Positions 3,119 to 33,038 of a stretch of DNA of 35,496 bases are shown here, piece after piece. The notes below the pieces were generated by a model. That model made no database searches. It was not told the DNA's origin and saw only the letters and a program-made list of their open reading frames with translations. The stretch lies in IMG/VR virus record IMGVR_UViG_3300042914_000555, positions 1 to 35,496 of that record. One strand, written 5' to 3'. A program made the position numbers and the translations under genes. Position 1 is the stretch's first letter, and every line of letters starts with the position of its first letter. This DNA comes from a virus.

Positions 3119-3430
3119 TTAAGCCCCTTTGATAGCGTTGATGATTCGATTGTAGATTCTGGCCTTGCTTTGATAGTACTGATAATCCCGATCAATAGGC
3201 GTGAAATTGAGCCATTGATTAATTCTAGCATTGTCTAATAAATCTTGCTTAAGTTTACCCTCCCGATTGTAATACGATATAAACCCCTGATGATTGTAAT
3301 GGGCTATAAACCCGCTGCATAAATACAAGTACTTGTATGCCTGCTTTGATAGTTTAGCCGGATCATTGATCGCCTTTATTACATTATTGACGATCATAGT
3401 GGATTGTTTTTCGGTGTACGGTGTGATCAT
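3119..3430 (-). CDS. hypothetical basic, tyrosine-rich protein
   Basis: A 103-residue basic protein unusually rich in Tyr, Asn and Ile (SKQAYKYLYLCSG, FISYYNREGK). The start has an AGGGG site about 7 nt upstream. It is probably cytoplasmic, with no membrane span or metal motif. It lies between the conserved hypothetical gene downstream and the GP88-like gene upstream and is probably cotranscribed with both. The function is unknown. Confidence 0.7.
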   Translation of the reverse strand: MITPYTEKQSTMIVNNVIKAINDPAKLSKQAYKYLYLCSGFIAHYNHQGFISYYNREGKLKQDLLDNARINQWLNFTPIDRDYQYYQSKARIYNRIINAIKGA

Positions 3431-30892: not shown

Positions 30893-31182
30893 GATTGCTC
30901 TTCCTCAGTGTAGTCAAAGTCTTCATCGATTTCTTCTTCTTTCTTACCGAATGTCTCAAAGCCACAGTCGGAATGAAATCCAAAACGATCTTCAACTTGG
31001 ACCTTCTTTGTAACATCAACATAGCCAGTGCTCTCTAGGAACTTGACAAACTGATACAGCACCGGAACCCAAGTAACAGCATCGTCAAATTCGTGTTTTG
31101 CCTTGATTGTGGTTGTGTTAGGCCAGTCGCCACTGTCGCCAACATATTCGATATCTTCGTATGTAAATTTAAAGGTTTTCAT
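30889..31182 (-). CDS. hypothetical acidic protein
   Basis: A 97-residue acidic protein with a strong GAGGAG site 5 nt before the ATG. Core: IEYVGDSGDWPNTTTIKAKH, then FVKFLESTGYVDVTKKVQVE, ending in an Asp/Glu-rich tail (EEEIDEDFDYTEEEQ). It overlaps the nuclease gene upstream by 14 bp and the exonuclease gene downstream by 4 bp. No motif suggests a function. Confidence 0.72.
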   Translation of the reverse strand: MKTFKFTYEDIEYVGDSGDWPNTTTIKAKHEFDDAVTWVPVLYQFVKFLESTGYVDVTKKVQVEDRFGFHSDCGFETFGKKEEEIDEDFDYTEEEQS

Positions 31183-31516
31183 TGCTTCTCCTCAGTAGGT
31201 CAAAAAAGTAATTACAGTCTACCACAACCAGGGGCTTATCTCTGTTTTGCTTGATGACGAGGACTGGCTCGTATCCTCGACTGTTGTCCTTCGCTTGTTG
31301 ATAATGCCCATATACAGAGATTGTTGCTCTGGACTTGCATTCCACACTGATTGGTAGCTTCCGTCTTGCTGCTGGACTAAGAAGCAGGTCTTCCCCCGAC
31401 ACGCCCATGCTAACTGAACGAACATCGTCAGGCTCCAGTCCGAACTTTGCGATTATAAGGTCTCTTACCGTTTGCTGTAGAACTCTTCCCTTTGCTTTCG
31501 CTGATGATGGCTTCAA
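31169..31516 (-). CDS. PD-(D/E)XK-like phage nuclease
   Basis: A 115-residue probable endonuclease. Motifs compatible with the PD-(D/E)XK fold are SGED (D43) and VECK (E59-x-K61), with basic helices at the N-terminus (KPSSAKAKGRVLQQTVRDL). It may act as a Holliday-junction or restriction-type nuclease in replication and recombination, but the substrate is not visible. The start is TTG at 31516: AAGGA lies 9 nt upstream and the family-like beginning is MKPSSAKAKGR; longer readings of the frame run through the neighbour. It overlaps the upstream gene by 89 bp. Confidence 0.78.
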   Translation of the reverse strand: MKPSSAKAKGRVLQQTVRDLIIAKFGLEPDDVRSVSMGVSGEDLLLSPAARRKLPISVECKSRATISVYGHYQQAKDNSRGYEPVLVIKQNRDKPLVVVDCNYFFDLLRRSNENL

Positions 31517-31766
31517 TGTCGATTTCCTTCCTTGTTTTAATCCACGACTTCGGTATGTGCATCCTAGCGTTGCTGGAGTCCATGCTGACCGTGCTGGCGA
31601 CACAGATCGCATCATCTGCCTCTGAGACAACCCATCCAATCGTGTAGCATTTGTGGATCTCTGTTTTGGTGCTTTCTTGCCAGCCTGCATCTGCTACTGC
31701 ATCAACCCATTCAATATAAACTATCGGGGCTTTTTCCAGACCTGATTTGGTTTTCTTCGAATCCAT
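31428..31766 (-). CDS. hypothetical phage protein with an N-terminus read from displaced exonuclease tail
   Basis: A 112-residue protein. The core after residue 14 (VYIEWVDAVADAGWQE, CYTIGWVVSEADDAICVAST, ARMHIPKSWI) resembles small phage replication-region proteins of unknown function. The first 14 residues (MDSKKTKSGLEKAP) are the +1 reading of a sequence that, in another frame, encodes the last residues of the flap exonuclease. Its Shine-Dalgarno, AAGGA, overlaps the TAA of the HNH gene upstream. The true ancestral start may have been inside the exonuclease gene. Confidence 0.75.
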   Translation of the reverse strand: MDSKKTKSGLEKAPIVYIEWVDAVADAGWQESTKTEIHKCYTIGWVVSEADDAICVASTVSMDSSNARMHIPKSWIKTRKEIDIEAIISESKGKSSTANGKRPYNRKVRTGA

Positions 31767-31768
31767 AA
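31721..31768 (-). pseudogene. displaced 3' end of the flap exonuclease gene
   Basis: Read on the minus strand this segment encodes LWIRRKPNQVWKKPR followed by TAG. The intact exonuclease ends LWIRRKPNQVWRKPR and TGA at 32179-32226, exactly 458 bp away. Of fifteen residues only one differs (K/R), although at least six codons differ silently (for example ATC/ATT, GTT/GTC, CCT/CCC). The HNH endonuclease gene lies between the two copies. This is the expected scar of an endonuclease gene that inserted with its own version of the exonuclease 3' end and displaced the resident one. Confidence 0.85.
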
Positions 31769-31774
31769 TTTTCC

Positions 31775-32182
31775 TTAGTAGTTGTCAGCATTGTGTCTAA
31801 TTCTATGACAGTTTGCACAAAGTAAATCACACTTTTCAATTTCTTTTATTATTTTGTTCCAAGACCGATGAAGCATTGTTTTAAAGTTATTATCTTTTTC
31901 TTCTGGATTTCTATGATGTAAATCATAAACTGAAGGATGAAACACTCCACCGCAATCATTACATTTACCACCAAAATAATCTATTACAAGTTTTTTATTA
32001 TTTCTTATCCTATCAAGTACTTGTTTCTGTCTTTTTTGTTTATTTTCAACTTTCTTATGATACCACTCATTTTCTTTTTTGTTTTTACATATTCTACACC
32101 AAGATTGATAACCTTTTTTTGTGTGTTTTGATTTATTAAATTGTAATATATCTTTTTCTTCTTTACATTTAGAACATATCAT
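31775..32182 (-). CDS. HNH homing endonuclease (free-standing)
   Basis: A 135-residue HNH nuclease. The N-terminus has two zinc-binding pairs (CSKC, CRIC) and a Lys-rich linker. The C-terminal HNH domain shows CNDCGG, the catalytic-type YDLHHRNP, and CDLLCANCHRIRHN. The start is the ATG at 32182 (MICSKCKEEK), preceded by GGAGG 8 nt upstream and overlapping the exonuclease stop (ATGA); a longer reading from TTG at 32224 would just translate the exonuclease tail out of frame. The gene is very A/T- and Lys-rich compared with both neighbours, a sign of recent acquisition. Confidence 0.88.
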   Translation of the reverse strand: MICSKCKEEKDILQFNKSKHTKKGYQSWCRICKNKKENEWYHKKVENKQKRQKQVLDRIRNNKKLVIDYFGGKCNDCGGVFHPSVYDLHHRNPEEKDNNFKTMLHRSWNKIIKEIEKCDLLCANCHRIRHNADNY

Positions 32183-32856
32183 CGAGGTTTCCTCCAAACC
32201 TGATTTGGTTTTCTTCTGATCCAAAGCAACGAAGCCTGCTCCGTTAAATAGGTTTCATCATTGTCGTATGCCTTCAGTACAGCTTCAAACATCTCATCCT
32301 CAGTCTTACAGCCTTTAAGTATCTTTTCCGCTTTCTTGGGTCCGATTCCTTTAAGGCCAGGAATGTTATCAACACGATCACCAGTCAGCACTTGTGTGTA
32401 GAAGTTATACAATGTCTCGTCTTCGTCAACCCAAACCTTTTCATTGCGCTTCATATTGTAGTGCCAGCCTCGGATCATGTTTAGATCTTTGTCTGTGGTA
32501 CAAATAACATAGTCTTCCGGTTCCATCGAATAAGCAGCGATGCCTATTGCGTCATCAGCCTCCTGATACTGCTCGATCTCAAACTTCCAAGCAGAGTTAA
32601 GATATTGACGCAATAAACCCAAGTGCTTGGGTTTCTCTTGTGTTCTGGTTCCTTTGTAAGGCTTTGTCTTTGCTAGCTGGATACGAAAGTTCTGATGGCC
32701 TGTAAGCCAACCATTAGCATCGTCACAACCAGCATGAACATAGACAAGTTCTTCAAGGTATTCAGAGCACTTGCGGAGAGCCACACTTTCGTCATAGTCC
32801 TCACAACCAGCAGCGAGGGTATAAGCGATAATGTCGCCATCCACAAGTGCAATCAT
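32179..32856 (-). CDS. 5'-3' flap exonuclease (T7 gp6-like)
   Basis: A 225-residue FEN-family nuclease that removes RNA primers and degrades host DNA. D6 and D8 of the metal site lie in LVDGDIIAY; further acidic motifs are EADDAIG and CTTDKDLNMI. The helix-hairpin/H3TH element is GDRVDNIPGLKGIGPKKAE. The last 15 codons (32179-32226) are duplicated 458 bp downstream beyond the HNH gene, so the present C-terminus was probably imported with that gene. It starts 3 bp after the stop of the small gene upstream. Confidence 0.92.
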   Translation of the reverse strand: MIALVDGDIIAYTLAAGCEDYDESVALRKCSEYLEELVYVHAGCDDANGWLTGHQNFRIQLAKTKPYKGTRTQEKPKHLGLLRQYLNSAWKFEIEQYQEADDAIGIAAYSMEPEDYVICTTDKDLNMIRGWHYNMKRNEKVWVDEDETLYNFYTQVLTGDRVDNIPGLKGIGPKKAEKILKGCKTEDEMFEAVLKAYDNDETYLTEQASLLWIRRKPNQVWRKPR

Positions 32857-32859
32857 CAG

Positions 32860-33018
32860 TTAGACCCGCGAGATAGAGTAACCGAGTTGTCCGTGAATAC
32901 GGCTCAGTCCTTTACTACGCAGATACTTACGGAGTGCGTTTCGAGCCTGCTCATACTTTGTCAGTCCAGCAAACGCTTTCAGTGATAGCTTACGACCATT
33001 AAATTTAACAACGTACAT
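32860..33018 (-). CDS. 52-residue basic small phage protein
   Basis: A short basic protein (MYVVKFNGRKLSLKAFAGLT, then YEQARNALRKYLRSKG, ending GYSISRV). An excellent AAGGA site lies 5 nt before the ATG. The stop is 3 bp from the exonuclease start. Similar small proteins (basic helix with AR.ALRKYL, C-terminal GYSI) occur near the exonuclease in other podophages as far as I recall. The function is unknown. Confidence 0.78.
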   Translation of the reverse strand: MYVVKFNGRKLSLKAFAGLTKYEQARNALRKYLRSKGLSRIHGQLGYSISRV

Positions 33019-33035
33019 AATTGTCCTTTCGGTTA
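33016..33035 (-). repeat. duplicated ribosome-binding-site block, copy 1
   Basis: On the minus strand this is TAACCGAAAGGACAATTATG, including the start codon of the 52-residue gene. A second copy (33453-33472) with one mismatch covers the SSB start codon. Both place AAAGGA at the same spacing, so the two genes probably have matched, high translation rates. Confidence 0.8.
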
Positions 33036-33038
33036 TGT

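Follow-up and report, generated by a model that had tools for sequence, protein, structure and literature searches.

A Homing-Type HNH Endonuclease Gene Probably Inserted, Together with a Foreign Exonuclease 3' End, at a Gene Overlap of a Phage Genome

Introduction

Free-standing homing endonucleases of bacteriophage T4, encoded by the mob (HNH) and seg genes, are described as bringing about co-conversion of flanking sequences (PMC2988022). The mobE gene next to nrdA resembles the case reported here in being a free-standing gene amid core genes of a polycistron, with a start overlapping the upstream stop; the passages of PMC2988022 drawn on here describe neither a duplicated overlap nor a replaced 3' end for mob and seg genes, unlike the present locus. 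According to the same passages, the HNH domain of the T4 mob proteins is N-terminal, whereas in the protein described below the HNH motif, judged by eye, is C-terminal, behind a part with CxxC pairs.

A second related system consists of mobile open reading frames with a replacement C-terminus in fungal mitochondria, as outlined in PMC3630166 for atp6, atp9, cox2 and nad3 of Glomus and atp6 of Allomyces. There, as here, the endonuclease gene is flanked on one side by a foreign 3' end, joined to the resident gene, and on the other by the native 3' end, now displaced. In the fungal atp6 and cox2 cases the displaced end is described as not expressed, whereas here it is the start of an overlapping gene; the fungal enzymes are mitochondrial and of the LAGLIDADG or GIY-YIG type (PMC3630166), while the present record is that of a virus and its enzymes are of the HNH type. 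As far as can be read from its sequence, the phage element works like a mobile open reading frame of the fungal kind with a replacement C-terminus, and is not classed as one. In ICP1 and other phages, genes for homing-type nucleases are said to mark the edges of exchanged segments beside core genes; these are islands of more than 10 kb flanked by nuclease genes (PMC10448857), as opposed to the tracts of about 185 to 600 bp beside one gene, with a doubled overlap, reported here.

Co-conversion by T4 mob and seg enzymes, and a foreign C-terminus with a displaced native end in fungal mitochondria, are already known. The apparent novelty here lies in the displaced end serving, still live, as the beginning of the following gene, in the resulting separation of overlapping genes, and in the occurrence of this twice with unrelated HNH enzymes; in literature searches, judged by titles and the beginnings of abstracts, no report was recognised of a homing gene that had entered a phage genome along with a doubled overlap. 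The DNA analysed is a stretch of 35,496 nucleotides from a virus (IMG/VR record IMGVR_UViG_3300042914_000555, positions 1 to 35,496), called the window in the following. It appears likely that a homing HNH gene inserted itself where two genes of the replication region overlap, accompanied by the exonuclease 3' end of a related phage, and that the overlap was left doubled.

Arrangement of the Locus

On the minus strand of the window the order of genes is exonuclease (32179-32856), HNH gene (31775-32182) and ORF112 (31428-31766). The features, all on that strand, are:

32179..32856, minus: gene for a 5'-3' (flap-type) exonuclease of 225 aa (phrog_107, E = 3.1e-56; Pfam 5_3_exonuc, E = 1.8e-9, slightly under its cut-off)
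32179..32363, minus: exonuclease nt 494-678, a putative foreign 3' tract (22.3% mismatch to L003, as against 5.1% in the part 5' of nt 494)
32179..32226, minus: upstream overlap copy, used as the end of the exonuclease; in it the ATG of ORF112 is gone, being TTG (from the sequence)
32191..32195, minus: GGAGG, 8 bases 5' of the ATG of the HNH gene and probably the ribosome site of that gene (predicted pairing -9.3 kcal/mol)
31775..32182, minus: gene for a 135-aa HNH endonuclease, probably of the free-standing homing type; its ATG overlaps the exonuclease stop (phrog_2255, motif, GC)
31772..31776, minus: AAGGA, probable new ribosome site of ORF112, in the end of the HNH gene (predicted pairing -6.0 kcal/mol)
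31721..31768, minus: downstream overlap copy, in which ORF112 has its live 5' end and which is also the displaced exonuclease end (from the sequence and relatives)
31428..31766, minus: ORF112, 112 aa, without an assigned function; overlap of 46 nt with the exonuclease end in uninserted relatives (from relatives)

An earlier note on this DNA, made from the sequence alone, had reported that the end of the exonuclease gene is present twice with the HNH gene between the copies. This was confirmed: the last 15 codons and the stop (32179-32226) recur at 31721-31768, at a distance of 458 bp. In the exonuclease frame the upstream copy reads LWIRRKPNQVWRKPR and the downstream copy LWIRRKPNQVWKKPR, each followed by the stop; 37 of the 48 bases agree, as do 15 of the 16 positions of this reading (stop included). 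A chance repeat was rejected in view of the latter agreement and of the recurrence of the arrangement in two other contigs. The start codon of the HNH gene and the stop of the exonuclease overlap as ATGA. Since the identical arrangement is found in L002 and L082, which come from other metagenomes, it is not a one-off assembly error; an assembly artefact was rejected for the window, as both copies and the HNH gene, with identical HNH DNA, are present in three contigs.

The Native Gene Overlap

In uninserted relatives ORF112 starts inside the intact end of the exonuclease gene in a different frame, and this stretch therefore codes for two proteins; the ATG spans a Leu codon with final A and the Trp codon. 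In the window ORF112 starts at 31766, within the downstream copy, likewise in a frame other than that of the exonuclease. The view of the earlier note that the downstream copy is the displaced native end needs to be qualified accordingly: it is a displaced exonuclease end, but it is no mere leftover, being the live 5' end of ORF112, and its survival is accounted for by its being the coding start of that gene. A functionless relic was rejected on the same ground. The upstream copy carries TTG in place of the ATG both in the window and in L053, the second inserted locus described below, and in both inserts a purine-rich site precedes ORF112 (predicted pairing -6.0 and -6.7 kcal/mol).

Among 49 uninserted near relatives the A of the ORF112 ATG is invariant, and the variability of the overlap is 0.078, compared with 0.188 for the preceding exonuclease sequence and 0.199 for the following part of ORF112; of 394 intervals of 46 nt, the overlap is the third least variable. 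These values were obtained with the set from the exonuclease search, the set from the pattern search being biased in that its pattern fixes bases of the overlap.

ORF112 gave no match to Pfam or PHROG families and none among GenBank phages. It was modelled (mean pLDDT 74.6) as a small beta-barrel, for which a fold search yielded weak matches only, many of them to Sm-like Hfq barrels (best E 0.07). ORF112 is absent from L247, L267 and L278 (near position 3190), where a resolvase-like gene directly follows the exonuclease, and thus would appear to be dispensable in some relatives. In the window a gene for a RusA-like resolvase (phrog_244, 31169-31690) overlaps ORF112, as listed, by 263 nt; to judge by its relatives in L247 and L267, the true start may be a later one. 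Both HNH genes, of the window and of L053, were read by eye as sharing the frame of the former start of ORF112 in the upstream copy, which is now TTG; that start might be used by them, and such a coincidence would occur by chance in one case of nine. The contig L081 begins (positions 1-2) a single base ahead of the ORF112 ATG, which is precisely the border of the duplicated stretch, as though the assembly had broken between inserted and uninserted versions.

Occurrence among Relatives

Scanning viral contigs with the exonuclease identified 80 relatives. All of these, together with 79 of 80 and 10 of 48 loci from two further searches (L062 being already included), made up a pool of 169 loci. 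Both ends could be placed in 163 of them (155 distinct contigs, by contig name), of which 161 were without insert and two, L002 and L053, with insert, many of the counted contigs being probably the same viruses recovered from several metagenomes. L278 was counted as placed on a spurious match and appears to be without ORF112 as well. The six unplaced loci were L001, which is inserted and cut off, L052 and L056, which end inside the exonuclease, L236, and L247 and L267, in which ORF112 was not found. In L236, with 140 bases left, adapter-like sequence extends from about position 3130 to the end of the contig, which we take to be Illumina adapter.

A gap between exonuclease and ORF112 was seen among the placed loci in L002 and L053 only, and a second copy of the exonuclease end without an HNH gene, which would have spoken against the account of the earlier note, was not encountered among them. 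The pattern search yielded 56 matches, 52 of them uninserted, three inserted and one assigned to neither class. The HNH gene is thus sporadically present at one site beside uninserted relatives, in the manner of free-standing phage homing endonucleases. A DNA search of GenBank phages gave two short matches only.

Origin of the Two Copies

It had been anticipated in the earlier note that the copy at 31721-31768 should match uninserted relatives. It is indeed the closer one in all 49 contigs of the exonuclease search, with 40-47 of 48 bases matching versus 37-40 for the upstream copy, and in 52 of 52 uninserted contigs of the pattern search. By itself this good match does not prove nativeness, since the two-frame overlap is conserved across clades.

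Importation of the upstream copy, also proposed there, agrees with its position in an apparently foreign 3' tract of the exonuclease which adjoins the HNH gene, a feature that is far sharper in L053. In comparison with L003, the nearest uninserted contig, the mismatch of the window exonuclease rises from 5.1% up to nt 494 to 22.3% thereafter (0 of 5000 permutations), and the tract, upstream of the HNH gene, comprises about 185 bp of exonuclease sequence. Most of the additional mismatch is silent: codons 151-210 contain 22 silent and 6 replacing changes in 60 codons, as against 18 and 5 in the 150 codons before. The tract shows no shift in GC. The window ORF112 is 86-87% identical to that of its nearest relative and the next gene is back at 97-98%; because the rest of ORF112 has diverged too, both flanks may have been imported in the window, and the downstream copy is clearly native, by sequence comparison, in L053 only.

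Ordinary mosaicism of phage genomes would be another source of such a tract: the HNH gene would have been a passenger in recombination, and the doubled overlap would have been selected for keeping both genes. Patches of low identity to L003 do occur away from the HNH gene, e.g., in the 5' part of the polymerase and in the stretch before the exonuclease; they are common, about one fifth of the 60-nt bins being below 85% identity (counted by eye). Since these patches exist, the tract of the window alone is not specific for the HNH gene. The stretch before the exonuclease (32857-33038) is 64-66% identical to L003, L004 and L005 and 85-87% to the L009/L018 group, and marks another mosaic boundary.

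The HNH gene of the window recurs in other contigs. In L001, which ends 30 bases past the exonuclease stop, the left side is 97-100% identical to the window. L002, with the same HNH DNA, is window-like from about nt 61 of the exonuclease through the HNH gene; on the left it shares 94-98% identity with the uninserted L009/L011 group, a value that falls to only 80% further into the exonuclease. L052 is identical to L002 on the left and ends before the junction, inside the exonuclease. Judged by these identities, one cassette is present in two left backgrounds, those of the window and of L002.

An Independent Insertion in L053

In L053 this same junction is occupied by a different endonuclease (190 aa; HNH_3, E = 4.3e-17; phrog_99; AP2, E = 0.0019, under its cut-off), and two unrelated HNH families are consequently represented at this one junction. 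L053 is a single contig from one metagenome and could be a chimera. Upstream, its identity to L041 is 89-99% in 50 bins of 60 nt and drops to 68-79% in the final five, which extend to the stop of the exonuclease and adjoin the HNH gene. Over its last 288 nt the exonuclease consists of A/T-rich, apparently foreign sequence, with GC3 falling from 52.3 to 26.3 at nt 390, whereas 48.4 is maintained in three relatives; a donor of the tract was searched for and not found. ORF112 is identical to that of the uninserted L036 in 337 of 339 positions, and the displaced copy matches L036 in 46 of 48 bases, the upstream copy in 31 of 48. The arrangement of a foreign 3' end, an endonuclease gene and a displaced native end is therefore clear in L053 and less certain in the window.

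The foreign tracts begin at about nt 494 of the exonuclease in the window, nt 61 in L002 and nt 390 in L053, and all three reach the HNH gene. Three different left ends are what co-conversion of variable extent would leave. Flanks of the co-converted kind are thus found in the window, L002 and L053, with less weight for the window taken alone, given its other mosaic patches. Mosaicism as the whole explanation has become unlikely at this point: in L053 the five bins abutting the HNH gene form the sole low run among the 55 upstream bins, and it would have to account for two unrelated HNH genes at one junction and for three tracts with different left ends which all extend to the HNH gene.

A doubling of the overlap in place when the HNH gene was inserted, after which the upstream copy, freed from the ORF112 frame, would have drifted, could account for the changes in that copy, most of which, by eye, leave the exonuclease reading unaltered and replace residues in the former ORF112 frame, and for the loss of the ORF112 ATG from it in both cases. 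The divergence, however, extends beyond the repeat, by about 137 nt in the window and by about 240 nt, with the shift in GC3, in L053. Local duplication alone was rejected for this reason, the foreign tract being longer than the repeat, and this origin is regarded as very improbable.

Proposed Course of the Insertion

Entry of a homing gene together with a foreign exonuclease end, the reading preferred here, could have proceeded as follows. A free-standing HNH homing endonuclease gene would enter the junction of the overlapping exonuclease and ORF112 genes, arriving with the 3' end of the exonuclease of a related phage. Repair of the cut or nicked recipient would copy the foreign exonuclease end and the HNH gene into the resident exonuclease gene, the copied tract ending upstream at variable points in the exonuclease and downstream at the ORF112 start codon or beyond. 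Because ORF112 starts inside the exonuclease end, a viable product would contain the shared stretch twice, the upstream copy serving the exonuclease and the ribosome site of the endonuclease, the downstream copy serving ORF112. Of these elements, the gene order, the native overlap, the duplication, the foreign tract, the cassette in two backgrounds and the independent second case are read from the sequences compared.

In addition, the cleavage site may be lost with the foreign 3' tract in place, so that the carrier would be protected. Against such protection it could be argued that a recognition site wholly within the overlap would leave the intact downstream copy open to cutting. Cleavage of the uninserted site, homing as the driving process and protection by the tract are inferences, drawn from how the T4 enzymes behave (PMC2988022).

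A selfish gene could in this way enter a genome without intergenic space, by bringing a copy of the sequence which would otherwise be broken, and the mechanism known from fungal mitochondria would be extended to phages. Natural pairs of overlaps before and after separation should make the constraint of two-frame coding measurable. More tentatively, gene overlaps could perhaps be hot spots for homing endonucleases in compact phages, as coding in two frames conserves the target and settling requires a spare copy of the overlap; this is considered possible rather than probable. If true, neighbouring genes would become separated, and each copy of the overlap would be free to evolve under one reading frame.

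The HNH Endonuclease Gene

The protein of 135 aa matches the profile of phrog_2255 ("HNH endonuclease"; E = 3.9e-35); there was no credible match in Pfam, and a sequence search of the PDB gave nothing useful. H89, H90, N124, H126, H130 and the CxxC pairs are invariant in three aligned HNH proteins (motif assignment by eye), and the conserved His-Asn-His and zinc-binding residues are accordingly present in the window protein. The structure model (mean pLDDT 58.9, below 50 over the HNH part) was too poor for checking the beta-beta-alpha metal fold. The GC content of the gene is 26.2%, that of the window 43.5%; of 702 stretches of 400 bp examined, those with the lowest GC lie over the HNH gene.

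According to the earlier note, a single K-to-R change creates the GGAGG ribosome site of the endonuclease. The spelling GGAGG is specific, occurring in none of 10 distinct uninserted overlap sequences compared, and its predicted anti-Shine-Dalgarno pairing is -9.3 kcal/mol versus -3.3 or -6.4; but the replacement itself is not specific for the endonuclease, since Arg (as AGA) is found at this position in uninserted clades as well.

That the HNH gene is a regular, resident recombination or packaging nuclease can hardly be maintained: annotated endonuclease genes do follow the exonuclease directly in the GenBank phages CRP-5, CRP-6 and MW202697, but in CRP-5 and CRP-6 the family is a different one (phrog_945), the MW202697 protein fits far better in other HNH families (phrog_3106; phrog_2255 at E = 1e-4 only), and the gene of the window is missing from nearly all near relatives and has a GC content far under that of the genome.

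A relative of the window HNH protein (41%) is encoded in L129 (2992-3417), where its start overlaps the stop of a different preceding gene; the gene 3' of it looks, in our reading, like a 5'-truncated exonuclease.
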